A stretch of DNA of 64,000 nt from Owenia fusiformis (taxonomy: Eukaryota; Annelida; Polychaeta; Sabellida; Oweniidae), in the NCBI GenBank assembly GCA_903813345.2, contig CAIIXF020000010.1, positions 26,438,425-26,502,424 on the forward strand. Reading direction: 5' to 3'. The translations under genes were made by a program, and so were the position numbers. Shown here piece by piece: positions 4,581-64,000 of the stretch. The notes beneath the pieces are model-generated. The model saw only the letters and a program-made list of their open reading frames with translations. It ran no database searches and was not told the DNA's origin. Each line of letters opens with the position of its first letter. Position 1 is the first letter of the stretch.

Positions 4581-4619
4581 ACTTTCATTGCTCGTAATTA
4601 ATCAACCTCTTTGCTTCAG

Positions 4620-4686
4620 ATGCATTCAAATCCGTAAATTACAAACATCGCTTAGAAAAGAGCAAAGACTAGCTGAAGTAGAAGAA
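4620..4686 (+). other. CBS: 5' UTR part of the first CBS coding exon, with a tiny upstream ORF
   Basis: A pyrimidine-rich acceptor ends at 4619, so this stretch should be exonic leader spliced to an unseen upstream exon. The first triplet after the acceptor is ATG (4620), opening a five-codon frame that stops at 4635-4637, ahead of the CBS start at 4687. The CBS frame is also open backwards to 4588, but the residues there do not resemble the family. Confidence 0.5.
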
Positions 4687-16459
<11,773 letters not shown>

Positions 16460-33548: not shown

Positions 33549-36500
33549 ATGGGGGTTAGGGCGCTCTACAGCTCGACTGTGGGACCCCCCTCCTTTCTAC
33601 CCCTGGTGATCGTTACGACAATACTTCTAGCTACAGGTAGGCTATACTTACAAATAATTTTGCCAAATAAATCGTAACAAAAACACCAGTATAGTTTTTC
33701 GAATAACTGGGCCATCTGTGTCGGCCATATTGGATTTCTCCCAAATCGATTTGTAGCAAATTTAGCAACTTTGTCCACTGTTTTCTCTATAAGTTCTCAA
33801 TTTGTAGCGATTAAACTTGATTCGATGTGATCTTGTAGCTAAAATCAAAACATTGTTGCCATTTTCCAGTTCAAAGTTGCCGGCTTGACGATTGTTCGCT
33901 CAAATATTGGATGGCAAGAGAAACTTTAGGAGAGGGGGTACTGGGTGAGCCAAACCAGAATCATATAAAATGTGTCACACTTAGAACATACTACCAATGT
34001 ATAAGAAATATGAAACAGGAATGTTATGGTGATATTCAATTCCATAGTGTACAAAAAATTGTGGAAAACAAAATGAAAGACAATAACTGTACTGTCCAAG
34101 GACAAATTTATACAGAAGCCAAATATGGCTCTCCTCGGCCGAGACCAGCCAACAGTAAGGTCTGTTCATTCCGGCCTGGATCTAGGAGTAAGAATCTACA
34201 CAAACATTGTGGATTATTTGGTGATCCTCATCTCAGGACATTCAATGAAGAATATCAAACGTGTAAAGTACAAGGTGCTTGGCCTCTCGTGGATAATGAG
34301 TTTTTGACTATTCAGGTGACAAATGAACAAGTAGCACGGGATAGCACAGCCACTGCAACAAGCAAGGTAATGTACTATTGCAATACCACATTCATGTTCA
34401 CTACATTTCATTCACCCAGAAATATGCATCAATAGCATGCCAAACCCCATAATGATGTTGAAGGGGTGACCTTGGCACTCAGCATATATAGGTTTAGAGC
34501 CCAACTATTGTACAGCATCAGCATATATACCTATCTATTGTTTGTACATCAAAATCCAAAATTCTTAAAACATGTTATAGCTCTTAGTGTATTTATGAAT
34601 TCTTAATTGCCATTAGCCTTGCCCAAGTCGGTATTTTTTACTTATCTGATCTTGAATTATTACCGCCTTGTACAATACACCTGCGCTGATATTATGCAGA
34701 GTTATTCAACGGTTTCGAGATTTCCATAATACCTATGCTATCAGGGGTATCGCGAAACCTTATTGATAAACAGATATACGCGTGGACACGACGTGTGACT
34801 TCAGGCTGATTGACCAATCAAAACGTCATCAGGTTGACCTGCATAAGCAAAGCAATATTCCCGATTTGAAATTCAATGATCTGATCGATCGTTTCTTTAG
34901 AGTTACAATATATTATGTAATTAAATGTACATAGGGAATGTAAGAGTCATTAATATAAATTAAATCATGCAATAGATTTAAAACTGATTTCGCGATGAAA
35001 ATGCAAGACCGAGTCCAATGTAGCGGGTCATGTAGTCGATCAGTGATTGAATCTCAGCCTACATGTTCATTTGAATTCAGCGATCGTTTCAACGTTTATT
35101 GTTGAAATCTTCTCACCTCCGGTTACCGATCGATGCTCCGGCATCCACTAAACTCTGATTGATATTTATTTGATAAAATATTTGTATTTCCATGATGAAT
35201 TCATGCAAGATTTGTTCGTGAAAAGTCCCGGCGAAAAGTAAAAAGTGTACTTGTTTTTGACCGTGCATAATAATGAGCTAACGCTGCAGGGCTGTCGTTG
35301 ATTGGTCAAATTTTACCGACATAAACATTGAGTCGGTAAAGCATGTGGCTTTCTCTTTGGTACAAGGCGGTCATAATAGAAATCAAGATAAGTAAAAGAA
35401 ACCGACTTGGGCAAGGCTAAATTGCCATAAGAAGAGTATTACTAAGCTAGTAAAATAGGTCAGGGATGATGATGGAAGAACATGAATACTATAAATCCTA
35501 AACCACTGGAGCTTAAAGAGAGCCTCCAAAGGGGATATGTCACACATGTCATGTAGCTCTGTATCAGGAAAACCATCAGGGTAAAGTGTGTTGATAAATA
35601 TGTGTTGACATGCAATACATGCAGTTACATTTTATGAAGTGATTTGCCCTGGCATTTCAGCATACTACAGCAATGTTCATGTCTAACCACACATATTAGC
35701 CCTTATGTTTCATAATATATCAATATACATCAATGCCCTTGTGTTTCAAATAAACTAATACCCCTCCCTGTACTTCAACATATTCTAATACCCATGTCAC
35801 TGTGTTTCATATCCATCAATACCCCTGTGTCTCAGATATACTAATACCAGTTCCTGTGTTACAACATGCACCAATACCCCTGTATGTCAGATATATTAAT
35901 ACCCCTTCCTATGTTTCAACATATATCAATGCCCTAATGTTTCATTTACACCCAGGCAGACACATGAATACCCCTATACTCCTATGCCCTTACATTTCAG
36001 CATATATTGATGCCTGATCCACTTGTGATTGTGACTTAACTCATTTAGCTAGGTGGTTACAAGGAGCACATAATATGTGTGTGTGTGTCTTATCTAGGAT
36101 ATGCTATAGTAAGACTTGTCAAGTTCCTCTAGAAGTACTTTTATCGGTTATGCCATAAATCCTAGCTCTGATATGTGATCAATATGTACAACTTATATAC
36201 ACTCTTTGGATGCCTTCTTTTTAAGTTTACAACATTGCACTATAGGATAAGTTCTGTTCTTTAGTTTCCATTTTGATTGATGAAAATATGTCTGAATTGG
36301 TAGCAGAATGTGTCTAGAATCCTGTGGGCATTAGCAACAATTCGTTATATAAGCTCATATATAGGACTGATATGTTTATTGATGCAAATACAATTTTACA
36401 TTGCGCCATAGAAGATCATAATTTTTAAGGTGGGGGTCAAAACTTATCAAACTAATTCAAAATATGAATTGCTTACTCCTAATAGTTGAAGTGCCACAAG

Positions 36501-39500
36501 ATGTGACCAATCATTTTTGATGAAAATTTATTAGAGAACCTGTTGAGATTTTGTTACCTTGTGTTCGGTGAAGTTACCATGTGTTCATATTAGAGGTTAC
36601 CATGACAAAAAAATAGTTGGAAGTCAATGTTTCATCTGTAGTTATGTGCTCAATCATATAGTTTGAAGCCAACATTTTATAAACACATGAACTTTAGTAC
36701 TCTGAACTGTTGTATATATTATTAACACCCGTTAGGGAATAGTGTTAAAATGTGAGCTCTAACTGACAAGGGACGCTGTGAAATGAATGTAGAATTTTCG
36801 CTGTAATGAACATAGCAGTTGGTGGGAATCCTGCGCTTAAAGTATCATAATATTCAAGTTTTTTACCTGTATTTGTGTGGAAAATAAAGGAATGAAGCAG
36901 TATCTAACATCCATATGTTATCCCCAGATCCATATTGTTAAACGTCTTTGTTATTACTTTGGAGGGTTTATATCTGAACTAGCACGACTAGTAAGAAATA
37001 TTATTAATAAGTCTTCTACTCGAACTAGTAATATGTTCAGGCTTTTGCAAAAAACACCATAAAAACATATGAATTTCCCACAGTTAGAATCCAGCACAGT
37101 ATTCCAATCGCCAAAACAGATGTTTGATCAAAATTAGATATTTTTATGTTAGAATGGTTTCGAAAAGATTTAGCAATAAATACATGCTCATAGGTTTTTT
37201 TAGAGAATTTAAGCTCAGATTTGTACTCCTCGTCCTTGGAAGAAAACTAAGAACTTTATTCTAGCCTAATAATGATTGTTCAGATGATGTTGGAGAAAGC
37301 ATAGTTATATACACAGGTGTATATATGATCGCTGGCATTCCAAGCATATTGGTTTTGGTTAAGCATTCTTTGCAGTAAAATATACAAAAGAGTTTTAAAT
37401 AATTCTAGGAAAAGTTCTAGGGATTTCATTTATTTAACCATTGGCCATACAGAACCTCATCTCAGCCTGACAGTTTCTGCCATTTGCTTTGTCCTCCCTC
37501 TCAAAGGTAAAGAGTATTGAAAGGACCTCCCATACAAACAATTCCATATGAAATGCCCTTTATCTGCAACTTATATCCTAATAAACAGGAAAGAAGAAAT
37601 TAGTTCTGAAAAATATCTAAAAGATATAAGTTCCACAAATATGAAAGTTAGCAAAATTATTTGTTGTTGTTAAAGAGTGAAAGTTAGTGAATTAAGGATG
37701 ACCATTTGAAATTAGGTTGCTAGGGGGGTTGTATTCACCTATTCATGACTGGGGCAGAGGTACACTGTCCAGTAAAGTTTTAGGTTACAGACATTGAATA
37801 GAGTTACTCTTGAACAGTTTTTGGTGTATTTATTAATAATTGCATTTTGATTAGCAAAATCACAGCTATTTGTACTTGAGGTTGGCATCTGAATAGAAGA
37901 GGCTAACTCAACTTTTGAAATATTTCATTATGAACCAGAGTTGTTCCTTTGTAAAAGTTTGGATACAGATTTATTACAGCACTAATGTTAAATTATAACC
38001 AAGCAATTCCATCAGATACAGATTTATTACAGCACTAATGTTAAATTCTAACCAAGCAATTCCATCAGATACAGATTTATTACAGCACTAATGTTAAATT
38101 CTAACCAAGCAATTCCATCAGATACAGATTTATTACAGCACTAATGTTAAATTCTAACCAAGCTATTCCATCAGATACAGCCCCCCTCCCATGACCATCA
38201 CTAAAAAGTGTTTGAAATGATTTCAAAATATTCTTCCCTACAAAATTGAGACCCAAAAATGTACCTTTTCAACCCTGTTCAATGCTCTCTCTCTGATTAT
38301 CTTTCAAACAAACATTATGTTTGGAGGCTTCAAAATTTTCCCTCCATACCATAATAGTTTAAATTCTCTGCTGGTCTACTGTATTCCTTGGTATATCTCT
38401 TGGATTGCACTATTGCTGTATTGTAAGAGTAATGTTTCCAAGCTGCCATTGCTATTTCTTGGCCAGGTAGCTGCTAGCTGGAGTAAGTTACCCAGTTTCT
38501 TGCTCATTATTGCAGCCTAAATCTAGCAATAAATCTGAAACTAGAGCTGGTGTCTGACAAATTGAAATAACATCTGTGGATCTGGAACATTGTTGTTCAG
38601 ATACAACACTCAACCAACAAAAGAACTTCCCGTCTCTGGTCTGTCTTCCAGGCTTACTTATACAGGAACTTACTCGCTTCATCTGGCTGGGTCATCTCTT
38701 TTAGAAAATACCTGTCCAATGGGAGAGACAAAGTTGATGCAATAGTTTCAATAGATGTAAATTTAATGGACAGCTGCTTTCCTAATTCTCTTGTTTTAGG
38801 AAATGTCAGTAAGCAGTGGCTGAGTGTTGCCAGGTCTAACTCTCTTTATATTGGAGACCTGGTTTTACTCATTTTTGTGTACATGTATGGTTCCATGCTT
38901 CAATCAAATTACATTCTGGTTCAGACATGGATAAAGGAATGGGACCATTTCTCATCCAAATGACAATATAATAAAGCCTCTAGATGTATATCTTCTAGGA
39001 CGTTGATTTAGTTAGCCAGGCACAGCTTATTTTTGATTGATCTCAAAAGCTTTGAAATACGGAGATTTAAGCATCAACTTGAAAAAATATATTTTCTATA
39101 TTTCAAAATGTACGTTGGAATAAGGGTTAACATGGGGCCAAATGTCATAAGTATAGTGGCTAAGTCTTTAGTTCCACATATACTTGAAGTCGTCATACCC
39201 AATATTAAAGTTGTGTGAGTTTACACCTTTCTCTGAGCATATTTGTCTTTCTCTCCACTTATTAAGTTTGTTGACAGAATAAACAAAGAGAACTAAATAA
39301 CTGGTTCCTTATATTAATTGAGCCAGGAATACATTTTCTGAACATTAGGGCTTGGTTGGCCATATGATATTTGACAAAATTCAAATGTGTTGTTTATCAT
39401 TTATGTTTGATGTTTCCTGAAGTAAAGCCTGATAAGTCATGTATTTGGTTATATGGTTATCATATTCCTCTCACACTCTAATGTTCTTCTCACACAGGTG

Positions 39501-45500: not shown

Positions 45501-46761
45501 TTGGGATTTAACACAGTCTCAGGAAACATATGTCAAACATATGATAAAATACAACCACAAAACATTATAAACACATTTTTGTATATGATGGTTGGCACAA
45601 AATCAATTTTGACACATTAGGGTCAATTGTCAAATTCAGAAATATCAACTTTGTCAAAGAACTCAGAAACTACATATTATATAGGTAAAGCCATATTCAT
45701 GTTACTGAATACAGTAAAGCTTTGTTTTAACATCAGAAATTGTATTTTGTGGTATTTTGTATGTAGGCAATGTTAGTGTATAAAAATGATAGATTTAGAG
45801 CATCTGTGATTTGTTGAAGAATTTCTGTATATCAAAGTGTAATTTAATGATACCATTGATACCTTGTATGTTGTCAAGTTAAATCTACTCTGGAGTTTCT
45901 ACAGATGATAAAATATGTTAATATTAATTTTTTATGCCTTTTATGAATAACTCTTGAATTTATGCCCAAATAAGAACGAACATTATATTATAAAACAGGT
46001 CTTTGTTGTTGCGATCTCTTACATGTGTTATTTTGTACTTGCAGTTGACTGTCATGATTAAGGCTAATGATGAGTGTGCAGAGGATCGCTACATGCTCTA
46101 CTTGGCCCAGACTGACCTACTTCCCGATGCCTTTGAGGATGGGAGTGAATCATTTGGGCCTGATGACAGTGTTCAACTCGTTGTGGTGCAGGCCAACAAA
46201 CATGTAGAGATATATATGAGATACATTGATACCACTATAATAGTGCGACAAGTAGGACGCTATTTCACATTTGCAATAAAAATGCCTGAAGAAATCGTAC
46301 AATTGACACGTGAATCTCCAGACCCCCTTCAGTTATGTGCGAGAGGGTGCCCCAAGGGGGAGCAAATCAACTATGGGGAGTTTCTAGCACAAAAACATAG
46401 CCATATAAAATCTCTGATTGATAAGAATGTACATGTCATGTCTCGTGAGAATGCCGTGAAAAAATGTAGTGAAAGCCGCGTCGTGGATTTTTACTTTGAT
46501 TCCTGTGTGTTTGACTTAATGACCACGGGGGATACAAACTTTACTAGGGCTGCAAACCTAGCACTTCAGGATGTGTTGCGCCTCCAACCCTCGGCAGCAC
46601 AGTCGCACCATAACAGGACATCACTTCATAACTATGACGTTCAGTATCGACTACACACTAGTGGTGCGTATAGCGTGCGTACATCTCCATCTAACTTATA
46701 CCACAGGACAACATTCTTATTATTAGTCATTCTGACCTATTACATACTGGCACACCGGTAG
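33549..46761 (+). CDS. RGM: repulsive guidance molecule (RGM/hemojuvelin family), 3 coding exons, complete
   Basis: GPI-anchored cell-surface co-receptor family that binds BMP ligands and neogenin. Exons: 33549-33636 (signal peptide), 33870-34366, 46045-46761. They total 1302 nt, phases match at both junctions, and the protein is 433 aa (human RGMA about 450). Residues 1-30 form a hydrophobic signal peptide ending LLATVQS. An RGM N domain begins at C33/C38. The autoproteolytic motif GLFGDPHLRTF has its scissile D148-P149 bond. The partial VWD-like region includes TCKVQGAWPL and, in exon 3, RQVGRYFTFAIKMPEE. Further motifs are CARGCP and FDSCVFDLMTTGD. N-glycosylation sequons NFT and NRT are present. 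A hydrophobic tail (TTFLLLVILTYYILAHR) fits GPI attachment. The vertebrate CRGD tripeptide reads CYGD here. Intron 2 is 11.7 kb and full of transposons. It converges with the CHD1-type gene downstream. Confidence 0.95.
34614..35419. mobile_element. 806-bp inverted-repeat transposon with 9-bp target duplication (RGM intron 2)
   Basis: Termini start TAGCCTTGCCCAAGTCGG and end with its complement. The TIR homology runs about 65 bp, through CTTATCT and CCGCCTTGTAC. The element is flanked on both sides by the identical 9-mer AATTGCCAT (34605-34613 and 35420-35428). No transposase ORF. A 9-bp duplication with long TIRs suggests a Mutator-like or foldback nonautonomous element. Confidence 0.85.
35670..36010. 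repeat. degenerate ~29-bp tandem repeat
   Basis: Loose repetition of units built from TTTCAACATATATCAAT and ACCCCTGTG in RGM intron 2, heavily diverged. Confidence 0.6.
37966..38181. repeat. 53-bp tandem repeat, four copies
   Basis: Four nearly identical units containing GATACAGATTTATTACAGCA, CTAATGTTAAATTCTAACCA and AGCAATTCCATCA. High identity indicates a recent expansion in RGM intron 2. Confidence 0.9.
41748..41980. repeat. inverted-repeat element inside the hAT-like transposon
   Basis: GAGGGGGAGAAACCCCAGGG plus TTCAAAGATGACAT on the left is mirrored by ATGTCATCTATTGAATCATG then GGGTTTTCCCTCCTC on the right. About 230 bp, noncoding. Confidence 0.55.
42130..42382. repeat. AT-rich repeat with duplicated CTAACTTTCAACTAATTATC block
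   Basis: The block CTAACTTTCAACTAATTATC, followed by AATAGTAAGTTAGGTGATAA, occurs twice, about 200 bp apart, at both ends of this stretch; its ends (CCTAAC, GTTAGG) can pair. Related AACTAATTA motifs occur at 40945-41000. Confidence 0.55.
42627..43390. mobile_element. 764-bp foldback element with exact 10-bp target duplication
   Basis: Long inverted arms start GGGTTTGTAGAAAAAACCGG and continue with GGTACCGGGTAGTA, CATGCTGGGTTCAAACTT, TTTGTTTTGAATTTACAAAA and GAGCTAGAAGCTTCAAATAA. They nearly meet in the centre (around 43010-43080). The left arm carries about 110 bp of extra AT-rich sequence (42686-42798). Flanking 10-mers TTTCTAGATA (42617-42626, 43391-43400) are identical. No transposase. 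Confidence 0.85.
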
Positions 46762-49019
46762 CATCTAGCATGCTTGTATAGTGTACAGATTATAATATAT
46801 TTCACATCTGATAGTTTGCTATGTATCACCTCAAAATATACCTAAAATGGGTGTATGTTTTACACCAATCACACCAAGCTTTTCACAAATGTGCTCATAT
46901 GATATGTGTCTATTCCCTCCAGTGGTGGGCATATGGACTTTATATATGTAAAAGCATCATTAGAGGCTGTAGCCATGGTTCAGATAGAATGTGATGGGGT
47001 AATACATAGCAGCTATCACTGGGTCATGACTGCATATCAAGTACACCACAGCTCTTCACAACATTTCAACCAAATTATTCTTTGTTTCACAAGTGAGCAA
47101 CTGAAGTAGTGTCTATTCCAAAGTGTCCTGACTTGTATATCCCTAAGCAAGGTTCCTTGTAATTCAAGATATCACCCTTCCTTTTGAAGCCTTCTTACTT
47201 CACTTCACACTAAGCCTCAAGTTTACAGTAGATCCCAAGTTGTTATTTTATGCATTTCATCTCACAATGACTTGGCTACTGGTGAAATGTACCTCATCTT
47301 TGTTCTATTGTCCCGAAAATCTTGTACAATCACTGAGTATAGCAGAAACCACAAATAGCCAGTTTCCTTTGTTTGTGGGGCTGAAATGTAAAATTGTGAC
47401 TGTGTCTGAACGGTTTACTGATGTGTAGTCATGGTGCTAATTGTAAGATAAATTTGTAAAGATACATATATTTATGAATTCAACAACATACTTCAGGGAA
47501 ATACTTTAGGTGGGGTTCCTTCAAATTACAAAGAAAGATGGTCACATGACATGATTGGCCGACAAAACAGTAAGAAATGGTCATGTGACCCGTTGACTTT
47601 GTGGAATGAATGAATTGTTCCTAGAAACTCTTACCTCAATGTGGAGGATAGAAAATCATTGCTATGGTTACAAGAATTTTGCCAGATTAAAACACAGAAG
47701 TACAATACAACAAACTCCCTAGTATTGGTATCATTACCAATGTGGTCACACTTATTTTTCTAGTCCTCTAGAAACACCAATAGACATGGCCTTGGTCTGC
47801 CATCTGGGGCTTCATTGTACCAAGAGACAGCGAGGAGCTTTAAACAATTTACTGCTGTGGTTTCAATTAACATTCTTATGAGTTCAATGGCAATAACGAA
47901 AAAGTGCAAGGTACAACTAAAATTGGCAGGATTCTTGTAACAATAGTGTTACTCATAAATGTTCAGTTGGAACTGTGTCATGTTCATACAGTGTACATAT
48001 ATACAACATTGGTTTCAATTTGAGACATTTTTCAAAGACCCATTGAGCTTTGAATCAACGTGTGCATTATGGCCTTTCATTTAACATGTTCAAGAATGAA
48101 AGACAAATATTGAGTTTATCAGCTTCACATTGTCACTACACAGGGTCGATCAGGTCTTTATATTCATCATTCTCAGTGTCTTCTGATTCATTGTTTTCAG
48201 TGTCTTCTGATTCATTGTTTTCAGTAACAATGAAGAAGAAAAAGCCTTATTAGGGTTACTGTTTTGATAAAAGTATATTTTTAAGAAAATATCTAAAAAT
48301 GTTTCTCCACTTCTGTTTTCCTGACCCGAAGAGTGCAATATATTGGTGGTTGACTTATGTGAAGCTGTGCATTCCAAGTTGGCATTCAACTTATCAGTAA
48401 TAATTCTATGTTCATGCACACTTTTAGTGGGAAACATGATAATATACAGTGTACATGTTGGTTTGCACATGCTGGGAGGGTACTCATGCATTTTAGTACA
48501 GGTGTCGTGTAGGCTGTTTTCCACATTGTTATCAAGCTAGGTAAGCTTGAAAAACATGCCAGTGTGACAATTTAAGGTATAGAACTCTTTATCCTAGGAA
48601 AATACATTGATCATTTTAGTACAGGTGGTATGTTGACTGTTTTTATTACAAATTTCTATAAAGCATCTGACATGTGAAATAGTAAGAATATGACATATGG
48701 AACGCAAGTACATGTAAATGTTATTTCAGCCACGATTCAATTCACAAATTGTTTGTGAGATCAACAATGGGTCTATATATTGATTATGTATGCAATCTTT
48801 GTCTCCAGTTTACAAATTTTGGTTTAAGTTGCAATAATATCAGACATTCTGGTTTAACATGATCAAATGAGGTTCTGTTACAAACATTATAGTGTTGTGT
48901 GCCTTTGCTCTGCAATTTATGGTCAAGTTAGGTTGATACAACATTGCAATGAGAAAATAACTTACTTTATCAGCGTAATATTTAATCACACAACTCAGTA
49001 TGATTTCAATGGTTCCCTC

Positions 49020-49570
49020 TTTCAGGATGATGTACCATTCACCTCAAATTTGCATATTGTGAAAGGATGATGTACCATTATTCACCTCAACCTCACATAG
49101 TGTGTCAGGATGATGTACCATTATTCACCTCAACCTCACATAGTGTGTCAGGATGATGTACCATTATTCACCTCAACCTCACATAGTTTGTCAGGATGAT
49201 GTACCATTATTCACCTCAACCTCACATAGTGTGTAAGGATGGTGTACCATTATTCACCTCAACCTCACACAGGATGTAAGGATGGTGTACCATTATTCAC
49301 CTCAACCTCACATAGTGTGTAAGGATGGTGTACCATTATTCACCTCAACCTCACACAGGATGTAAGGATGGTGTACCATTATTCACCTCAACCTCACACA
49401 GGATGTAAGGATGGTGTACTATGTTCACCTCAGCCTTACATAGTGTGTCAGGTACCATTATTCACCTCAACCTCACATAATGTGTCAGGGTGATGTATCA
49501 TTATCTTCACCTCAACCTCACATAATACGTAAGAATAATATACCATTATTCACATCAACCTCACATAAAA
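49020..49570. repeat. 43-bp minisatellite
   Basis: About twelve copies of AGGATGATGTACCATTATTC joined to ACCTCAACCTCACATAGTGT and GTC, with diverging units at the right end. Confidence 0.9.
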
Positions 49571-49712
49571 ATGTTATAAGTAGTTTCTTGATTCATTGTC
49601 AACCCATTATGTACATGGTACACTCAATGCCAACAATCCTGATACATCAGCTCTTAGGTTAAAGAGGTATACAGAATACTGAATTATTGACAGTAAAGAA
49701 TTTTTAACTGGA

Positions 49713-49743
49713 AATAAAATGAATATTTTTGTTACAAAATAAA
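49713..49743 (+). terminator. candidate RGM polyadenylation signals (two AATAAA)
   Basis: AATAAA occurs at 49713-49718 and 49738-49743. They are the first clear hexamers I found downstream of the RGM stop at 46761. If used, the 3' UTR would be about 3 kb and would include the 43-bp minisatellite. This is inference from position. Confidence 0.2.
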
Positions 49744-51054
49744 AACTGTATTTTTTGTGTCTTCTTTGAAAGAATTTTTACTTAAAAGGTACATTTAAGT
49801 GACAAGGGTCGTGATTTTTAGTACCAGAAATTTTTAAATCACAAATCTTAGGCCAGGGACAAAGAAACTACATGCCTTTTTATTCTGATTCTAAAATACA
49901 TTGAAGTTGAAATAAATACTGAATAACCTGTGACTTTCACCATCAATAGACACTGTTACATTTTCTGTAAAAAATGTATTATATTTTAGAAACTATAATA
50001 GATCCTTGCATCCTTTGTGATTTGTACATATGACACTTCACACTTATAACATGAGCAATCTGTTCAAGCTTTGGCAAGGGAAGAAGCTTTGATTTATTTT
50101 TAAGTTTCAAAACTTTTGATTATCGGTTTTCCTATTTTCAAATTCAATAAACTCATCTGTTTTATCCTTGAATTTATCCATAGTAGGGACATATGAAGGT
50201 TGGTGGAAGGGAGGGGGCAGTTCAATAATGTAAAACAGATGGGAAACTCATGTTTCTTTTGTTTATATAAGCATAAAAATAAAATAAAATGTGCCGGAAA
50301 GTCTATATTATTCAGTGGAACTGTTCTGACCGAAGACTCCAAAGATGCCAGAAACATGTGTTTTTGGAAGAACTGAGGCAGAATGAGATATTTTATTGAA
50401 AAGTTCTGCTAGTCTTGAGTATAGTTGCAAGTACGAAGTGGCACCCCCTCCAGGTACAACTAGCTCAGTCTAGAAGTGGCATGTCAGAGTCTCATGCCCC
50501 CCACTGTTCTCTGACACTTCTTAACAAACCAACATCTAACCCTAATATTCACATGGCCTGGCTCCACTTAGATTCATGCTGAAGTTGAATATTCACTTTT
50601 GAACATTTTTAGCTTCATGTATTTCTTAGAATATCACAATGGGCATATATTGATCTCATATTTTGTCAGAAAGATTTTATTGAAGTGTCTGATTTAGAGT
50701 TAAAATTCACAACTTAACTTTACCCCTACTATGACTAGTAATACTCCAGTTTACATTTAAAAAGTGGCTGCCATGATGCTAGATTTGCAGGGGGTCTGCC
50801 TATATTCAGGGCTGCTTGTCTTGCTTGTGTTTATATAGTATCAGCTATACACACCTAATACACACCATATGTTGTGCACAGTAATGTGGAAATTGCTCTA
50901 AAGAAATCCTGTTGGTGAACCAGGATCTTTAGTTTGCATAGTATCTATCAACTTATAATTGTTTGTATTAAGCATTTTCACTAATTAATTGCTTGATGAA
51001 TGTCTGCTTTCGTTGTTTGTTGTTTAGTCAACATAATACATTCCATTGTCTCCA

Positions 51055-52275
51055 TACTGCCCAGTGACAATGTACCATGCCTGCATTCTCTAGTGCCCAG
51101 TGACAATGTAACAAGCTTGCATACTCAAGTGCCCATTGACCATGTTGACAATGTAACAAGCCTGCATAGTCTAGTGCCCAGTGACAATGTACAAAGCTTG
51201 CATTCTCTAGTGCCCAGTGACAATGTACCAAGCTTGCATATCTAGTGCCCAGTGACAATGTACCATGCCTGCATTCTCTAGTGCCCATTGACAATGTACC
51301 ATGCCTGCATACTCTGAGCCCAGTGACAATGTACCATGCCTGCATTCTCTAGTGCCCAGTGACAATGTACCATGCCTGCATACTCTAGTGCCCAGTGACA
51401 ATGTACCATGCCTGCATACTCTAGTGCCCAGTGACAAGGTACCAAACCTGCATACCCTAGTGCCCAGTGATGTAACAAGCCTGCATACTCTAGTGCCCAG
51501 TGACAATGTACCAAGCTTGCATACTCTAGTGCCCAGTGACAATGTAACAAGCTTGCATACTCTAGTGCCCTGTGATGTACCAAGCTTGCATACTCTAGTG
51601 CCCAGTGACAATGTAACAAGCTTGCATACTCTAGTGCCCAGTGATGTACCAAGCTTGCATACTCTAGTGCCAAGTGACAATGTAACAAGCTTGCATACTC
51701 TAGTGCCCAGTGATGTACCAAGGTTGCATACTCTAGTACCCAGTGACAATGTAACAAGCTTGCATACTCTAGTGCCCAGTGACAATGTAACAAGCCTGCA
51801 TACTCTAGTGCCCAGTGCCAATGTAACAAGCCTGCATACTCTAGTGCCCAGTGACAATGTACCAAGCTTGCATACTCTAGTGCCCAGTGACAATGTAACA
51901 AGCCTGCATAGTATAGTGCCCAGTGACAATGTACCAAGCTTGCATTCTCTAGAGCCCAGTGACAATGTAACAAGCCTGCATACTCTAGTGCCCAGTGACA
52001 ATGTACCATGCCTGCATACTCAAGTGCCCATTGACAATGTAACAAGCCTGCATACTCTAGTGCCCAGTGACAATGTACCATGCCTGCATACTCAAGTGCC
52101 CATTGACAATGTACCATGCCTGCATACTCAAGTGCCCATTGACAATGTAACAAGCCTGCATACTCTAGTGCCCAGTGACAATGTACCAAACCTGCATACT
52201 CTAGTGCCCGGTGACAATGTATCAAGCTTGCATACTCCAGTGCCCAGTGACAATGTACCAGGCCTGCAATCCTGC
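51055..52275. repeat. 36-bp minisatellite, about 33 copies, open in several frames
   Basis: The unit is AGTGCCCAGTGACAATGTAA then CAAGCCTGCATACTCT. Because 36 is a multiple of three and the unit lacks stops in three frames, frames of 339 (+), 341 (-) and 264 (-) codons result. The plus frame would encode a 12-residue repeat VPSDNVTSLHTL. Several units lack one CAA, a 3-nt loss that keeps frame, but single-base changes near 51240 and 51313 break the frame at the left end. No initiation, splice or family evidence supports translation. Confidence 0.9.
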
Positions 52276-52539
52276 ATACACAAAAACGGGAGAGGAGATA
52301 CAACTGCTAGATTTAGATAGCGTTGATAGACATGAGATCAACAATATAAATCTCTCTAGAATTTGTTTAGCTTTCCCTTTTCTAAAACTAAACAGCCAGT
52401 ATACACTCCAGCTTTTCCCTATATAACCAGGCTGAGCCAGGTGCTGTAGGTAGAAAATGGGGCAGAATATTAAACTGCCAATGGATGTCAGACATATTGA
52501 ACTTGCAATGTATTCACAAGAACAAATTGGATGTATGAG

Positions 52540-52990
52540 AATTCATTGATTGTATGAATTGATTGAGACTGTTGATTGTATGATGTAACATTGATTTGGT
52601 AATTGAGTCCATTGATTGTATGATGAACCATTGCTTTGGTGTTTTGAGTTCATTGATTGTATGATGAAACAGAGATTTTGGTGATTGAGTCCATTGATTG
52701 TATGATATACCAATTATTGTATGATGAAACATTAAGTGTATGATGGATCATTGATTGTATGTTGAACCATTGATTGTGAGATGAACCGTTTCTTGCTGTA
52801 TGTATGGTGAATTATTACTTTGGTTATGGGTTGTATGATTTTTTAATGAACTATTGGTTGCTTGATATTGTTGATTGTATGATGTACAGTTGCATTGCTT
52901 GTATGATGAACCATTGCGACTAGTTATTTGAGGAATCATGATTTTATGATGGGCCGTTGATTGTTAGATGAACCTTTTCTTGTTGGTTAT
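52540..52990. repeat. degenerate TTGATTGTATGATGAACCA tandem tract
   Basis: Irregular repetition of CATTGATTGTATGATGAACC, with spacing of roughly 20-60 bp, directly after the 36-bp array. The minus-strand frames rich in Gln/Asn here come from this repeat. Confidence 0.65.
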
Positions 52991-55900
52991 ATGATGCACC
53001 ATAGGTTTATGATGCACTATAGATTTTATGTTGGAATTCGATAAACAAATGATTGTTTTTTAACTATTACTTGATTATATGAGGAAATATTGATGGAACC
53101 GATGAGGCAACAATTTATTTCTAAGGAATATACTGATATTCAGCCACAAGTGTGACCCATTTTCCTCACAGCTGAAGAAAGATCGAGTTTCAATAGCATA
53201 TCAGTACTTTTTCCTCTTCGTTTTATCATACATGCTCCGTTTATTCCAATTTTCCTACTTGGCCCTAACTCTGTGTGAGTTGAAGTGTTGAGTGAAAAAA
53301 TGTCCATGTTGAAGTGGAGAATTAACAAGATAGGAGAACTCTGCTGGAAACCTCTGCCACTGTACAAGAAACATCACATCTACCAGATTGTAGAGATAAT
53401 CTCACTGTTCCTCTATATAACACAACCTAAAGGTAGATACATCATAAAGAGAATGAAAAATTGCAGGCAATCTATTTAACAAACTACGCAATCCCAACAA
53501 TTACACCTTTATCGGATCTGAGAAAGCACCATGGTATCTATAAAACATGACATTTTCAATTTAAATTCAGAATTGTAACACAAAATATAGTATGTGTTAT
53601 AACTTTCTGAATGTTTCGTATGTATGCACGATAACATCATCAACATAGGCATCGAGATAGGGATGACAACATCAGGAATCAAACGGGGTTCCTCAATTTT
53701 TGAGGAGGATGGAAACCGATTAAAGATCATCAAAATATTGATCTGCATGGTCAAAAGTAATTTTGAAAAGAAGGCTGGGTGTGGATTTCCTACATTCTGA
53801 CATTATGACATGATGTAGTTAAATAAAAATTCATAGAATTTCTCCTTCCTATGTCGTATTGTGAACTTTGAATGCAATCAACTCACATTCACAAGTTGAA
53901 TAGCAAGTGCTTCATTGTAGGCCTTTCAAGTACCAGGTTTTAAAATTCCAAAATTTAATTTGTGGCAGCTTTAGGCTTGAAACACACTTGAAACTGAATT
54001 CCTATATTAGATTTAACGAGTTTCCATTGAAGCCCAAAATTTTTCATATGAATGAAGTGTTTTTATTTGGATTTAAAGCAGGTATGGAACCAATGTAAGC
54101 CCTTGTTGTTGAAGAAATACAAATTCAAAGAATTATTCTTACATTTTTCAACCTATTCATTCACCTCACAATAAGCTCCATAAAATCAATGGGCTAAGTT
54201 GAAGTATTCAATCAGTTTTCGGTAAAGGTGTTTGAATAATGCCAATTTCCCCATTTCTCTCTCAGTTTGTTTTAAATCACCCGAAGGTAGAAAAATAGAG
54301 TGTTCTATTATAACCTCTGCTTCATGTCACCCGAGACCATGTTAAAACATTCAACTTTTAAATCTTATCAAAACAAAAAATAAATCCTTGGATAAACAAA
54401 TCTATGTTTATCATATTGAGAGAATTCGGCAATATAAGCAAGAACAATGTTCGCAATGTTAATTTCCCATGGCAAATAAACCACGCCGTTTCTTTTGTAA
54501 TTAAATAGTTTCAGTATGAGTGTGAAATATCAAGGAAAACATGAGTACTTAGCATGGTATATCTAATATCAAACTAAATTAATGAATTAACATGATATCA
54601 GTGAAAAGGCAAGGAAAGATGTGATATAATGTAAATGTTGATATGACTTTCCAAGTAACGACATTTTCAAACTGAAGATCAATGATAGCAAAAACGCATA
54701 ATTTTATTTGGGCCTTCCATGGAACACAAGAAATATGGTCAATTCAAACAAAAGAACAGAAATTGGTGCTATATATTCAAATATCTAAATGATCAGTTGG
54801 CAATCGTAATCAAATATCCTTGGATGAGTTAATAATTAGTTTGAATAAAAAATGATGTGTCAATTGCTAAATGATTTATTCTCACGAGGTCATGCAATTT
54901 ACAACTGTCTACTGGATGTAGAATCAACTCTCCTATTTCCTAGTAAAATGAATATTAATGCATTATTAAATATGATAAATTGAATGTATTATGTTTATTT
55001 TTTGAATAAATACGTCAGCGTGTCCTGAACATTATAAATCAATTTCCATGTTTTTCATGAAAATAAAGATTATACGTTCATTGAAATTCTTAACAATGGA
55101 AAATATTGTATTCAAGGACTATTCATAAAACACTCCGTAAAACACTAAGATTTCATGGGATACCATTAATTTTATCTTGTACCTTACACGTCAACATATT
55201 TATATATATTTGACAATTAATATTTTACAACATTTTGGGACACTCTCAAATGTTTTAAATGTTATTGAACATGTTGTCTATTTCATGGACAACCCGACCA
55301 GGAAGTGTTCAAATCCCCCTAAAGCTGTTCATAAAATTCTGACACTACCTAATATACACTTAGCGCACATTAAGAATTATTAAATCAGATTATCATCAAG
55401 GTTGTATTTTTCAATTATTGGAATCCAAAAATCCCAAAGCTGCAATTGTTGGTAGTGTTACAATAATCGCTTTAAGTTGCTTCAATAACATTGTAATGTT
55501 CAGTGTGTTGCCAAATGGTGTTGTAATGCAATGAAAATGTCAAATGTATGATTCCAAACATAATATATAAGTCAGTGAAGCCATCCTTGTTGGACTTGTA
55601 ACACTTCCATTATTTCAACCCTTCTTACTTCATCCGGGCCATTAGGGGAGGGTCCTGTAGCATCATCCGAAGCACGATTGCTCCTAATTGAGCATAGCAC
55701 TTTGCTAATTACCTAAATAGATATACACAACTGTTACATAAAGATTGGTAAGGCATCTAAGATTATATGCTCCCAATGGAAAATATGATACCCTCGATAA
55801 AGCTATGTTCAGAAAACTTGTGAGACAAGTCTCGGAATTATTCATCCATAAATATTTTGCAGTGAAGAGCGTATTCCAAAGATGAGGATGTAGAGCCCCC

Positions 55901-56019
55901 AGCAAATGAAGTCATCCAGCAGGAGATTTAAGATGACAAAGAAACGAGAACAGAGGTCATAATGATAGAGGAATTACAAAGTGTTAGCCACCTGGAACAA
56001 TGTACTAGGATCGTCAAAC

Positions 56020-56084
56020 TTAACGCCGTCAAAATGTGTTAAATAATTTTTCAACGGCGTAAATAGTCGTTTTGACGGCGTTAA
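56020..56084. repeat. 65-bp hairpin bounded by TTAA
   Basis: TTAACGCCGTCAAAA at the left is exactly complemented by TTTTGACGGCGTTAA at the right, with a second inner AACGGCGT. TTAA ends recall piggyBac- or Kolobok-type nonautonomous elements, but the size is very small. Confidence 0.6.
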
Positions 56085-57812
56085 AAGTACTATGCATATA
56101 ATCCGATATTTTCCCGATAATTGTGTTTTTAATGCAAATTAAATTGTATTTGCGGTATATGTGTTATTCAATGTAGAGCGAGTGTATTCATTTAATATTT
56201 TCCACTTTAGAGTGTGGTAAAGGGATGTGATCTTAGCTGTATATCTAAGAGTTACTTTCACACCTCCCTTCCTCTGATTGACAGCAACAGACGCAAACCA
56301 AACATTAATCATCTGGAGATATTACACAGGGGTCCGTTTCTCATATTATTGACGGGAAACGAGTGACTTGATCGATACAATTACAAAGGCATTTATATAT
56401 CGTTATAAATTTTTAAGCAAACATGAGGTACATGATTGGTCAATATTGTTCTGAATAAAGCTATCTTCAGTACTCATCATATATGTCATAATGTTTTGAT
56501 ATTTTGATAATATATAATATTGTCAGCAACCAATAAAATTAAATTAAATTAATTCCTCAAGTTTATAGGCATTTTTATTTTGATGAATTTTTAAAAAATG
56601 AGAAATACCAGAAAGGTATCAAAATTGTGTTATTTTTATATCTCTGTATGTTGAGAAACGTCTCCCTGAAATGAGTGTTGGGAACAGACAGCAAAACACA
56701 TTGCAACAGAAATATATGCTGACCTTATCACTGCAATTATAAGAACAAAGAATAATTGTGAAACATCTTTCTCACATGTATAACATAGCACTTCCAGGTG
56801 TAGACTAAGACAGATTAAATGTAATATGTTATATAAAGTTTTACAAATATTTCATGGGGAACAAAACCTGAACAGTTCATATTACATTCTTGCTAATCAT
56901 TGATATTCGACTAAACTGTTCTATAAGGATGCTAAACTGATAACACCTTGTGTAGCTCATATTTTATTTTGAGAATGATCAACTTGTTTAAAGCGACATC
57001 TTTTAATTCTCATTTAACCAAATGCGCGTCCTGTTCTTTTCTCTGAAACAAGACGGGGGCAATCTCTTTTATCGTATTGTCAATCTTTAAGCAATGATTT
57101 CTAATATGACTGAAGCCAAGAAATAAGATAAATGTAAGTATTTATTCAATTGAACTGGATTGGGATGGATAAAACTTATCAACACAAAAATTGTTTTAAG
57201 GTTTTATATTTTATTTTTCTTATCTCCGATTTTATTTCATGAACCAATGTATCTTCAGAAGATTGGCAGAAATTCTTCAATTATTTATCATAAATAAGGT
57301 TAATAAATGTTCAAATACAGTACAAAATACTCCCTCACATAACTCGAAATATTAATGTTTGACTAGGTCACATATTTACTGAGAAATATCATTAAGCAAC
57401 TACAAGTTGGCAAAATAATGATTAGGCAAACATATTGCAACCAAATATTACTGGGAGCACACTGCAATACCAGAAAATTGTAAATTGTATTGCATACAAC
57501 AATGCAATGAACAGAAGTAGAAACTGATTCAAGATCACAAATCATTTATTTATATACTGCCAAATAAACACAATCTTCTTTTACTTCTGCTGATCATTGC
57601 ATTAAACCTTTGCCAACTATCTCTCAGATTTTATTAAACAATGAGCATAGACATTCCTTTTTAGTAGTACCTAAATGATGGTGTCCAAATGACAACACAT
57701 AATTTTGTAAAGGGGATGGGGCGAATGGCACATTTACTAGGAAACATTTATTTCACACTGGCCGATCTGGGGGAGGGGGTTAAAACATTTTAGGGCCCCT
57801 TGAATTTTCATA

Positions 57813-58809
57813 TACAGGGTGACCGGAAAAAAAGGAGACCATTGAAATAGGCAATATCTCCTAAAATAGACTAGTGTCATCAATGAAATTTTGCATACAT
57901 CAGGACAGTTCTATGGAAATTTGTTCCTGAAAGTGTCAATACAAGCAGTCAACTGGTTCAGGAGCTATGATCATTTACATAACATGCTCCAAATAGGCGC
58001 AATTGAGACCAACGCAGAGCTGGATACATTTGGCAAATACCCTTACATATTCCGACCTTGTTATGGCATTACATTTAGCATTTATTGCCACCTTTAGGTC
58101 AGCAATTGTCTCAGGATTGTTTTGGTACACATTGTCTTTCAAATTGCCCCACAAAAAGAAATCAGGTGGATTCAAATTTGAGGTGTATGGAGACGAAGCT
58201 TATCTGACCTATGGCTTCTGACTCAGTGGTCCCACTCAGTTACAGTATCATCCTAAGGAGGTTTTGGGCAGCCCTTGGTTTTCATATGGGATTTAATTGT
58301 GCCATATAGTGGTTTTAGTAACATGGCACTATGCCCAATACCTAAAGTGACTCTTAAGATTTGGTAAATCAGCACTTTGGCAACAGGATGATGAACCACA
58401 TGTCAGATAACCCTTCATTGCCATTACAGCCTAGACTTGAATCCTGCTGATTTCTTTTTGTATGGATATTTGAAAGACAATCTATACCAAAACAATCCTC
58501 AGACTATTGTTGACCTAAAGAAGGCAATCACTGCTATATGTAATGCCATAATAATGCCATAGAGGGCAGAACATGTAAGGGTAGTTTGCCATATGAATCC
58601 AACTCTGCGTTGGTCTCAATTGTGCCTATTTGGAGCATGTTATGTAAATGATCATAGCTCCTGAACCAGTTGAATGCTTGTATTGAAACCTTCAGTAACA
58701 AATTTCCATATAACTGTTCCAGTGTATGCAAAATTTCATTGATGGCACTTGTCTAGTTTAGGAGAAATTGATTACTTCAATGGTCTCCTTTTTTTCCGGT
58801 CACCCTGTA
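57813..58809. mobile_element. palindromic Tc1/mariner-type remnant with two inverted transposase 3' ends
   Basis: Both ends start TACAGGGTGACCGG-AAAAAA-GGAGACC, inside a TA at each side (57813-57814, 58808-58809). Inverted homology extends about 250 bp. On the minus strand at 58175-57975 a frame reads NPPDFFLWGNLKDNVYQNNP; on the plus strand at about 58435-58540 its sister reads DLNPADFFLYGYLKDN. This is the C-terminal DDE-transposase motif of Tc1/mariner relatives. Both fragments point outward, so the element is an inverted duplication of one transposon 3' end. Incapable of coding a full transposase. Confidence 0.8.
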
Positions 58810-59477
58810 TTTTTTGAACAACTGCTGATATTTGGACAACATACTGTACCTTTACAAACAATTGGAAATAACAAGAATGATAAATAAAATAAAACAATGA
58901 ACCAATGGCATATTGTTGGCATGTACATTTAAATGTATGGATAAAATTAACTCCAACAAAGTTTTTTAAACTTATAGAATTTAACGCTATCCATTACATA
59001 ATAAGTTCAACTTATCGGCCTACTACATCTAAGTCTCCACTTTAAACTTTAGTTCAATAATTAAATCTTATTTTTCTTTGCAATCTGCCCAATATTTACA
59101 TACATGTACAGGTATTGTACATTAACATATACAGTCCTTGTATTAAACAACTATACACAAGTTTACAGTCATGTACAAAATATATTACAATGTAGACATA
59201 TATACATCAAAGTGAATGAAAAAATAAAGTCATGCAATGTATTTGTCTATGTCATTATTATCTGTATATTGATTGTAGTTCCTTTTGATTTCAGGAAAGG
59301 AGTGTTGCATTGTCAGACATTTGTCTAACCAGGACAAATCTGTCATTTAATAAATGAATGGTTTCTACTATATACCCATGTAAAGGCAGTCAGTAAACTT
59401 TGTAATGGAGTCGCTGACATTGCCTAGGATGACACTGTTGCTGAAGATCTATTCACTAAACCAGGAAGAGACTCTTG

Positions 59478-62400
59478 TCAGTGATCTACTGAGGGTGCAT
59501 GTGACTGAGCTTGAAGTCGAGGATCACGGGGAATTTCCTGTAAGCGAGGTTCTTTATATGGACGTTTTTCCCTACTGGGACTGTCTGTTCGTCGTTTACG
59601 CTCACTGTGATATTGAGTACTATATCTGGAATAATCAAATTTAGAAAATAATAATTTCAAAATTACACGGTAACAGTTGCAACTAAGTTATCGGAATTTG
59701 TAAGAATTTTTTACAGATGCCGACCTCTGAATACCAGACACCAGCCACCGAACATCGTCCACAAAAATGAGACTGTAACAATATGTCACTGGCAAAATAA
59801 TTGCCTGACAACCAATCAGATTACAGTTAAGTTCATATAATGTTGAAAGTGCTCTATTGTTTAAAAGTCTTTCTTACCTATCATCTTCAGGCTGTCTTGC
59901 AGGATGGGAAGCTGCTGGGAAGTCAGTTCTATGTGTTCCATAGTGGTCTCTATTCCACACATCCCGATCCCTGGAATCTCTTGGATCTCTACTTACATTT
60001 GGATTGGATCTATGATCTCTGTTGTTATAATCTCCACGGTGATCTGGTCGATGTGACCTATCACGACTAAAGTCTTTGTGATCACCACGGGAACTGTGGT
60101 CACCCGCTAAATCCGGTTTATGGTACCCGTAACCCCCTCTATCTCTATTATAGGAACTAAAGCTGCCTTTTTGGTCATGGTTAAACCTGAAAAGAATTAA
60201 CTTGAACTCAGTTGTTGCTTGTATTAATGTTAAATTCCTAAAATGATAGATAGAACATTGATGTTTTTTGCCTATTTCTATCATTTTTTATTTCTCTATA
60301 CATCCATTTTAATTTTTCCCATCACTTGAGAACAACCAACTGCCAAACTTATAGATCGATTTATATAATATTAATTCTATGATGTAAATACTCTTGAAAA
60401 TGCTGGGAGTTTACCTGTTACCATCTTGTGGATATTTTCTATGTACATCTGTGTTTGGGGGCCTGTTGTAGGCATCATATGGCCGGTTCCTCTGCTCCTC
60501 AGGCCTGGCCAGGGGACTGCTGAGATTCCAGCGATCTGTAGCAGACTCTTTCACCCCAGGAGGACGGTTGTAGGAGTTGTAGGCATTATTGTTGAAGTGA
60601 CGTGGCCCATTGGGAGCACTGAAATGATGACATCATTAATGAAAGATAATAGGTATTATTGATGAAGTGACATGGCCCATTGGGAGCACTGAAATAATGA
60701 CATAATTTAGGTGTTTTATTGTAATAGTTGGTCCAAGTAGTTAACATACCTGTCCCCTCTGTTCCTACTGTCTGAAGTGGAAGGTTTAGACTTGTGTGCT
60801 TTCTCCCCACTATGCTTGTGATCATGCTTCTTCTTCACAGGGGAACCCTTGGAATCATTGCTAGTTTTCTGCTTGTGTTCATGTTTATGTTCATGCTGAA
60901 ACAATACAAAAAGTAGTGAGGTTAATACCTGCTTTCACTGGAGTTTGATACCTGCTTTCACTGGAGTTTGATACCTGCATTCACTGGAGTTTGATACCTG
61001 CTTTCACTGGAGTTTGATACCTGCTTTCACTGGAGTTTGATACCTACTCTCACTGGAGTTTGATACCTGCTTTCACTGGAGTTTGATACCTGCTTTCACT
61101 GGAGTTTGATACCTGCTTTCACTGGAGTTTGATACCTGCTTTCACTGGAGTTTGATACCTGCTCTCACTAGAGTTAATTTCTGCTCTCCCTAGAGATCAA
61201 TACCTGCTCTCACTAAACTGATTTCACTGGAGGTAAAAACCAGTTATCAATGGAGTTTGATACCTGCTCTCATTAAAAGTGATTAGCTGCTATCACTGTA
61301 GGTAAGCTGTCAAGTAAGTTTATTTATCCAGATGAAAGGATGAGCTAGGATTTAGTTTTAATTTATAGTGGAATTAACATTATTCTATTTTTGTAACAAA
61401 TGATCATTTTCTCTTTATCTCCACACAACTAAAACTCAAAACTAAGACATATACATCTAATATAACTTGAACCCAAAATTAAGACATCTACACATAACTG
61501 AAACACACAACATGATGACTATATCCCACTGGTGCTGTGATAAAAAGTAAAACATCTACATACAACTTTTATAAATATATCCAATAAATCCATGCCAACA
61601 GGTCAGGGAACTACATGATAACAAATGCTGTTCTAAACTTGTACTCTAGCAACAAAAATATCTACAAACAAGTGATTGATGAGTACATGCAGACAGGCAG
61701 ATAGAGACAGACTGAAATGTAGGTTTCACCCACCACCTTGCGGTCTCTTGGCCTCTCCCTGTCACTGCTGGTGTCTCTAGTTGACATGCCTTCATATGCT
61801 AGTGTATGCAGTCCCTATAGCCACAGACAATACACACCAATGTTAGTATTAGAGGAGACCTTCAACTTCACACAATCAACCAACTTTGATTTCTCATTCA
61901 GAATAGATTATAAAGCACAAGTTTGGGATGTAGACCATGGTGCTGAGAAACTAGATGATATTATCACTTAGAAGATGTCAACACAAATCTTTAACTTACC
62001 GAATGTTTTTCACGTTCACTATCACGTTTTTTTACTGCATGTTTGTAGAGTTTGTGGAGCTTTCTGGCATCATGCTCTGTGAACTTAGAGACAAACACCC
62101 ACAGAAAACTGAAATAATACAATCACTTTTTCTTGCTGGTAAATTAGCAATAGCACTATACAACATGAGTTAGTTGCAAATCTCGACAAACTATGTGGCT
62201 AATGGCTTTGAATTGAATTTGAGTTACCGCCGAGACAAACACAAAGAAAATCTTCTTTTTCATATGACTATTTCATTAATTACATTGTATGCTTGTTTGT
62301 TTTTCATTGTTATACAATATATTAATACATAAAATCTTGATTTTTGTAAGCATATATCACAGTTATGGATTCAATTACCTTCTCCACTCCTTGATCTTCT

Positions 62401-63764
62401 CTGGATCTTTAGCTTTAGTGAGACATTCATTGATTCTATCTCCTATCTTGAGAAGACATTTCCTAGTGTGGTCCAGTTGGTCCCTTTCAGAGAGGCCAGC
62501 CTCAGGGTTGTCAAGCTGCTTCAGGGCCTTCTTCACTGGACGCATCTGCTCTTTGCACTGGAGACGGAGAGAACAGAATCAGGTGGGGCAAATGATATAC
62601 GTAATATTGCAGTGAAATGGAAGTTGCCCATATATCTTAGAATTTGTTATAAATCCAAATTTCATATTGTTTCTACACAGACTACACATTGCCTCAGAGC
62701 CTTCTTACTAGACGCATCTGCTCTTTGCATGTAAAAGGGCAAATCACATACGTAATATTGCATTGAAATGGGAGTTGCCCATGTATCTAAGGCGACATGT
62801 ATAATCAATAAAATACAAATCTTAGCAGACACAACAAACAAGAGATAATAATTTCATGTTTTACCTTTTTAAATACTGCAGGGTCAAGGTCAGTGCTCAG
62901 GTCGCCATCAAGACCTATGGCAGTAGGTTCAGTAATGGCAGTGAAATGCATGGGACCATCCTTTCCTCCCTTCTGAAACACAATAAGGGAAAAATATATA
63001 TACATGCGTCGTCTTTATTGCACATATGGAGCAAAGATAGCTAAATGTCTACATTGAATCTGTAGTAAAGAACCAATGTTCAGTGATAAAAGTATCCTTG
63101 TATATTGTGGTACACTAAGTCATACATGTACAAGTACATTGTAAATTGCCAGTGAATTGCAGAGAAACCAAAACACAAGCTCCATCTTACCTTTTTCTCT
63201 TCCTTTCTCTCTTTCTTTTCCTTCTTTTCTTTGGCTTTCTTTGCTTTCTTGAACTCATGTGGATCCATGGAGTTCTCATCATGAATCTCACCATCACTGA
63301 GATCAGGCTCATCTTCTATAATCTCTTTAGACTTGAACACTTGCTTCTTCTCTTTCTTCTCTCTCTTCTTTCTGGGGGCCTTAGACACCAAGTCCTTTAA
63401 TAGCAACAATAGCAACTATTCATCCAACTTTAATTACTCTTCCACGATAATTGTGCAAATTCTTGATTACCGAAACAACAACTATTCATTTATCTTTGAA
63501 GACTTTTATCTTTTTTCTATCACTTGAACCATAATTGCGCTCATATTAACCTATTCTTGATTTTTTACACTACAAAAATACACTAAAAAGAGCATTGCTA
63601 TCCAATCTGAAATATCTGACCACTAATGTGTTTCATGAATGCACTGTTTTGTAACTGACCTTCCCAGTCTTGGCATTGTACTGTTTGAGCAATATCCTGA
63701 GCAAGTAGTCTGTGCGGGTCTGGAGGTGTTTGGTCTGAGGCTTCAAGTCTCCATCTGGCAAAAT
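59478..63764 (-). CDS. CHD1: CHD1/CHD2-type chromodomain helicase, C-terminal 529 aa (5' part outside window)
   Basis: ATP-dependent nuclear chromatin remodeler; only the region after the motor and DNA-binding domains is here. Exons in coding order: 63764-63660, 63394-63191, 62972-62865, 62557-62379, 62108-62000, 61814-61737, 60895-60750, 60618-60415, 60186-59878, 59625-59478 (1590 nt, all phases consistent, TGA at 59480-59478). The visible part begins [20 protein letters not shown], the family's KILP...KPQ.KHLQTR.DYL segment. A Lys/Glu-rich linker with an acidic [10 protein letters not shown] patch follows. Next comes the CHD1 helical C-terminal domain (CHCT, DUF4208) around fragment residues 128-225: [51 protein letters not shown]. 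The tail is low-complexity, rich in His, Arg, Asp and Ser-Tyr, ending SHAPSVDH, as in vertebrate CHD1. The preceding exon (WELIK segment) was not found before 64000, so the gene continues off the edge. CHD1 versus CHD2 cannot be decided; an invertebrate gene would be co-orthologous to both. Confidence 0.94.
60651..60710 (-). repeat. tandem copy of a CHD1 exon edge and acceptor
   Basis: This copies 60581-60640 at a 70-bp offset. It includes the acceptor and the first ~38 bp of the exon at 60618-60415, with few mismatches. The copied acceptor (CAG at 60691-60689) is intact. Splicing there and reading through would shift the frame (70 is not divisible by three) and stop early. Confidence 0.75.
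60925..61290. repeat. 23-bp minisatellite in a CHD1 intron
   Basis: About ten clean copies of TACCTGCTTTCACTGGAGTT plus TGA up to ~61160, followed by decayed units to ~61290. Confidence 0.9.
62690..62793 (-). pseudogene. decayed duplicate of the CHD1 CHCT exon start
   Basis: Matches 62519-62640, which covers the first ~40 bp of the exon at 62557-62379 and its upstream intron. The copy has lost the acceptor (ACATGCAAAG instead of CCAGTGCAAAG) and has a 1-nt deletion in the coding part, so it is a dead pseudo-exon inside the intron. Confidence 0.7.
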
Positions 63765-64000
63765 CTACAATATAAACACACCATCTCAGTCTTTAGTATA
63801 CATTAAGGTTGGTAGCTTATGGTTTAGATCTAGCTTTAGGTTATATTTTGTTAACATAATCATATTGCTTTATTATTGCAGATTGTACATGATATTGGTC
63901 ATCATCAATACCTCCCTATCTCTTCCCTTGGTAAAAGCTAAGAGAGGATGACTCTGGACAGAATAATCAATAGTGAAAGCACAATAATTACAAGCCAAGA

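Follow-up and report, generated by a model that had tools for sequence, protein, structure and literature searches.

In vertebrates, RGM and CHD genes are found side by side. RGM (repulsive guidance molecule), which serves in nerve guidance, is a BMP co-receptor and a neogenin ligand, CHD1 is a chromatin remodeller, and the doubling of the RGM–CHD pair belongs to the vertebrate genome duplications. The arrangement itself has been described repeatedly. CHD2-RGMA and CHD1-RGMB are reported to be paralogous convergent neighbours that arose via segmental duplication (PMC6370684, citing Severyn et al., 2009); the convergence of both human pairs, which an earlier sequence-only reading of the present locus had named, is stated in that text. 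A conserved position of chd genes next to RgmA and RgmB has been noted for vertebrates (PMC10605842, citing Camus and Lambert, 2007), and in trout fam174b, chd2, rgma, and nr2f2a are placed in one paralogon (PMC7693511). Outside the vertebrates, RGM of the hemichordate Saccoglossus kowalevskii has been described as clustered with chd genes (PMC10605842). For Ciona, the same paper gives a link with Dnajb5, and the sole mention of chd in its main text does not name Ciona. CHD1 is also listed on a coral linkage map, where the text accessible to us makes no mention of the pair (PMC3091320).

Gene neighbourhoods of bilaterian age have been studied more generally. Whole linkage groups common to amphioxus, vertebrates, and scallop have lasted for such a time span (PMC7269912). 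According to the text available to us, gene density is high in most of the non-paralogous blocks of bilaterian age that lophotrochozoans have kept, and denser microsyntenic blocks are more coexpressed; regulatory blocks have been suggested for low-density vertebrate blocks, and the old Wnt5-7 block is among the low-density ones discussed (PMC8851819). Within the open-licence literature, supplements being outside the scope of the search, no report of an RGM–CHD1 pair in any protostome was found in the texts accessible to us, and CHD1 and RGM have zero occurrences in PMC8851819, PMC12407938, and PMC10719294.

In this study, an RGM–CHD1 pair was found in the annelid Owenia fusiformis. The vertebrate pairs and the hemichordate cluster, data that imply linkage before the duplications, are already in print; the spiralian instance is new. 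Like the vertebrate RGMB-CHD1 and RGMA-CHD2 pairs (PMC6370684), the Owenia locus has adjacent, convergent RGM and CHD1/2 genes; it differs in being a single copy where vertebrates have two, in its spiralian host, and in the cystathionine beta-synthase-like gene 5′ of RGM. It shares with the Saccoglossus cluster a single invertebrate RGM that lies with chd; however, for the hemichordate the text accessible to us states only clustering (PMC10605842), whereas in the spiralian both orientation and spacing were read. A developmental gene long linked to a widely used neighbour also resembles genomic regulatory and bilaterian microsyntenic blocks (PMC8851819).

Layout of the Locus

The window, that is, the whole stretch of 64,000 nucleotides that was analysed, lies on contig C10, which accounts for 37.46 Mb (7.5%) of the 498.3-Mb, 525-contig assembly. 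RGM and CHD1 are immediate neighbours that converge tail to tail, with no recognised gene between them (Table 1). The 174 kb surrounding the pair are free of N bases, which shows that the two genes were not brought together by scaffolding. The pair is real and was correctly described by the sequence-only reading, which had placed RGM on the plus strand and a CHD1/2-type gene on the minus strand, about 12.7 kb apart: Pfam domains confirm both genes, and 12,716 bp lie between the stop codons. A small codon model, trained on the RGM and CHD1 exons, served to rank open reading frames (ORFs), and Pfam was given selected ORFs only, which leaves the list of neighbouring genes incomplete.

Table 1. 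Coordinates of the window and of features of the RGM–CHD1 locus and contig C10; positions without a contig name are those of the window.
Feature	Position	Strand	Remarks
Window	C10:26,438,425-26,502,424	forward	contig C10 of the Owenia fusiformis assembly
RGM exon 1	33549-33636	+	ATG; hydrophobic signal-peptide-like stretch; GT donor after 33636; read from sequence
RGM exon 2	33870-34366	+	RGM_N, start of RGM_C, GDPH motif; splice sites read
RGM exon 3	46045-46761	+	remaining RGM_C; hydrophobic C-terminal tail; stop 46759-46761
Spacer	46762-59477		12,716 bp between RGM and CHD1 stops
Minisatellite, 43-bp unit	49024-49567		12.8 copies
Minisatellite, 36-bp unit	51058-52268		33.8 copies; explains long ORFs there
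Minisatellite	52,560-52,787		third larger tandem repeat of the spacer
Inverted-repeat transposable-element-like unit	57812-58810		226-bp left arm repeated elsewhere
CHD1 3′ part	59478-64000	-	stop 59478-59480; gene runs past window end
CHD1-like_C (CHCT) exon ORF	62378-62578	-	59.6 bits vs cut-off 28.3
HOMER	C10:1.16 and 1.17 Mb		family search matches
MEF2	C10:9.37 Mb		identified by reading exon
NR2F	C10:9.60 Mb		best match, 96% identity
AP3B	C10:14.30 Mb		two matches
FAM174	C10:21.89 Mb		two matches
IQGAP	C10:26.65 Mb		one match, three internal stop codons; ~0.13 Mb from most upstream identified CHD1 exon

RGM and CHD1 Genes

The three-exon RGM model gives a protein of 433 aa. Its ORF at 33839-34432 matched Pfam RGM_N (6.8e-15) and RGM_C (3.3e-28), and the ORF at 45994-46758 matched RGM_C (8e-54), all above the cut-offs. 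Among solved structures (PDB), the top match of the last exon was RGMB (1.4e-40). GDPH, the RGM autocleavage motif, was found in the predicted protein, together with a hydrophobic stretch, read by eye, at each end, where a putative signal peptide and a putative GPI anchor would lie. The second intron is 11.7 kb long. In a search of the whole assembly, RGM_C matched solely the two exons in the window.

For CHD1, nine minus-strand exon ORFs, taken from the window and from 60 kb next to it, were run against Pfam, and all nine match families expected for this gene: Chromo (two), SNF2-rel_dom (three), Helicase_C (two), the SANT-helical linker (one), and CHD1-like_C (one). One SNF2 exon had CHD1 as its top match among solved structures (2.6e-54). 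The CHD1/2 linker match, in one partial exon, reached E 7.6e-7 and 30.2 bits, under the Pfam cut-off of 34.4. The acidic part of the same ORF also matches Milton, barely over the cut-off of that family (23.1 against 22.3), and this was put down to composition. The gene extends at least to position 80,277 of the extended numbering (~C10:26,518,701), where the most upstream exon ORF (79,993-80,277) is serine-rich and was taken as N-terminal by eye. CHD1-like_C matches once in a search of the whole assembly.

Beyond the window, at extended positions ~73,742-74,945 (L003:9742-10000 and L004:1-945), a minisatellite with a 75-bp unit was observed in ~16 copies. It is apparently built from the second-chromodomain exon of CHD1. 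A GGTRAG splice-donor-like sequence stands at 15 of 16 copy ends, and the copies share a reading frame, in which two stops occur.

The Spacer

Nine stop-to-stop ORFs of at least 90 aa were counted in the spacer, four of them inside a minisatellite. Pfam was run on the other five and on three shorter ORFs, leaving out the four in the minisatellite; none scored above cut-off, and one gave a weak match (E 0.02). Rfam at gathering thresholds gave no match anywhere in the 64-kb window, in which no tRNA was found either. The left arm of the inverted-repeat element occurs in at least 39 other places on ten contigs with 100% rounded identity (40 scored of 510 candidates), which suggests that the element has spread recently. 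Since minisatellites and a recently spread repeat have been accepted there, the spacer is not inviolate.

Chromosome-Scale Linkage

FAM174, MCTP, MEF2, AP3B, IQGAP, NR2F, and HOMER are families whose human members are paired on 5q and 15q. These seven, chosen on that ground, were searched for in the assembly. Six of the seven were detected, and all six (FAM174, MEF2, AP3B, IQGAP, NR2F, and HOMER) are on C10. Under independent random placement this would have a probability of ~2e-7 (arithmetic, with C10 as 7.5% of the assembly). A search for MCTP, run without a positive control, gave no match in the assembly or in its controls, which is no proof of absence. Weaker nuclear-receptor matches in the NR2F search fell on C10 and nine other contigs.

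Two controls were available. A homeobox search gave 139 matches among 150 scored of 218 candidates, and just seven of these 139 (5%) were on C10, so this contig is no general gene collector. Besides MEF2, there is one further MADS gene; it reads as SRF and lies on C8. The order along C10 is HOMER, MEF2, NR2F, AP3B, FAM174, RGM-CHD1, IQGAP, with the tested genes ~0.13 to 25 Mb distant from the pair, and it is not the one found in human, either on 5q or on 15q.

Human Islet genes are on 5q and 15q, and Orthopedia is on 5q. Homeoboxes that read as Islet (C10:15614677-15614844) and as Orthopedia (C10:17520469-17520606) were observed on C10. They were excluded from the six-of-six count because only the C10 homeoboxes were read for them.

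Spiralian Status

Eleven homeobox stretches on C1 were read by signature residues. Ten of them, at 17.97-18.47 Mb, are at the Hox cluster, and we take them to be Post2-type, Lox2, Lox4, Antp, Lox5, Scr, Dfd, Hox3, pb, and lab; the Lox5-like stretch carries KLTGP. The eleventh, at 18.96 Mb, presumably is Gbx. No Post1 homeobox was among the eleven. Lox2, Lox4, Lox5, and Post2 are spiralian markers, so these readings, made from signature residues, identify the animal as a spiralian. A COX1 family search of the assembly, intended for determining the mitochondrial code, gave no match, and the phylum was therefore judged by the Hox homeoboxes. At the end of the Hox cluster (C1:17970300-17971100, L017), two posterior-type homeobox exons lie ~350 bp apart within 801 bases; they are perhaps a tandem duplicate of Post2.

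Age and Origin of the Pair

The simplest account of the RGM–CHD1 pair in Owenia is that of a linkage inherited from early bilaterians, and its tail-to-tail arrangement probably arose before vertebrates parted from worms or molluscs. RGM and CHD1 are each single-copy in the assembly, the gaps of which could hide further copies. Extra copies, which the sequence-only reading had named as a sign of a secondary arrangement, were not found, RGM_C and CHD1-like_C each marking one gene. The same reading had held that the linkage predates the vertebrate duplications. In view of the single genes, the linkage of six paralogon families on C10, and the spiralian host, this very probably stands, and the linkage is very probably older than the bilaterian ancestor as well; the hemichordate case agrees. 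These statements draw on one newly examined genome, with six of seven families detected.

With high confidence, we infer an ancestral linkage and not one that formed a second time. That RGM and CHD1 came together again by chance in the Owenia lineage has its bare possibility in its favour and is extremely improbable. A given convergent 3′ neighbour would be acquired by luck at a rate of ~2 in 100,000 genome-wide (arithmetic, for a pair picked post hoc among the few gene pairs in the window), if the gene number is set at ~27,000, a stand-in from the Owenia annotation, which has 26,966 genes (PMC9977687); in addition, all other detected paralogon families are on the same chromosome. It is highly probable that the Owenia pair represents the RGM-CHD1/2 convergent pair before its duplication, handed down from a bilaterian ancestor and later doubled in vertebrates, where duplication of the ancestral pair would have produced RGMB-CHD1 and RGMA-CHD2. 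Unlinked genes in other invertebrates had been named as evidence against an old linkage. As judged from the literature, the one hemichordate cluster agrees with an old linkage, and Ciona may differ (PMC10605842). On the basis of the Ciona passage, the pair may have been broken in some lineages.

The spiralian instance shifts the likely origin of the human CHD2-RGMA and CHD1-RGMB neighbourhood back to the bilaterian ancestor. It also provides an unduplicated point of comparison for assigning linked enhancers to the gene that they control.

Why the Genes Stayed Together

RGM is developmentally regulated, and CHD1 is a widely used chromatin gene. A developmental gene beside such a neighbour fits a regulatory block with RGM as the target and CHD1 as a bystander. 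Control elements of RGM would sit in the spacer, in the RGM second intron, and in the CHD1 introns, and a chromosome break would sever RGM from them. That elements so placed have kept the pair together is a tentative proposition that falls only slightly short of even. Somewhat less probable is the stronger form in which putative RGM enhancers in the spacer and the CHD1 introns have locked the pair since the bilaterian ancestor; the locus would then be a regulatory block with an age of more than half a billion years, and vertebrates would have duplicated it in its entirety. Geometry rules out a shared promoter, since the RGM and CHD1 promoters sit at the two far ends of the pair. Set beside a rough figure of 18 kb per gene (arithmetic), a spacer of 12.7 kb is not a large one, and a regulatory block is weakened as an explanation by the mostly gene-dense nature of the bilaterian blocks kept in lophotrochozoans, as far as described (PMC8851819).

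The pair could also be ancestral and kept only by slow rearrangement, with no function holding the genes together, a reading to which we give appreciable weight while judging it somewhat less than an even prospect. The persistence of whole linkage groups in amphioxus, vertebrates, and scallop agrees with it (PMC7269912), as does the retained gene content of C10. However, the order of C10 is scrambled against the human order, and the other tested genes lie ~0.13 to 25 Mb from the pair, whereas the pair is still adjacent and convergent in Owenia and in both human copies, and clustered in the hemichordate, as far as these are described. Linkage kept and order shuffled, with adjacency and orientation unchanged, favours constraint over a mere lack of shuffling. 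Constraint through the 3′ ends (overlapping 3′ UTRs, antisense read-through, or shared termination) would account for the convergent orientation reported for human and observed in Owenia, but is quite unlikely with the stop codons so far apart and with minisatellites and an inverted-repeat element occupying the spacer. A spiralian pair would also make it testable whether the CHD1 introns carry RGM control elements.

Neighbouring Sequence

Two features with scores below cut-off were observed past the CHD1 end of the window: an ORF resembling reverse transcriptase (L005:8848-9891; RVT_1, E 6.6e-4) and a GST-C-like exon (L008:7860-8156; GST_C_6, E 3.8e-4). On the other side, 5′ of RGM, a plus-strand gene at 4576-16234 reads as cystathionine beta-synthase; one exon ORF matches PALP (8.4e-19), and the rest was read by eye. 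Farther upstream, between ~26 and ~3 kb outside the window (L011-L013), there is a long collagen-like gene on the plus strand with GATGPSG-type repeats over many ORFs. One of its ORFs matches Collagen (1.7e-27), and the gene has a 5′ MAM domain (5.9e-16) and a membrane-spanning-like end.
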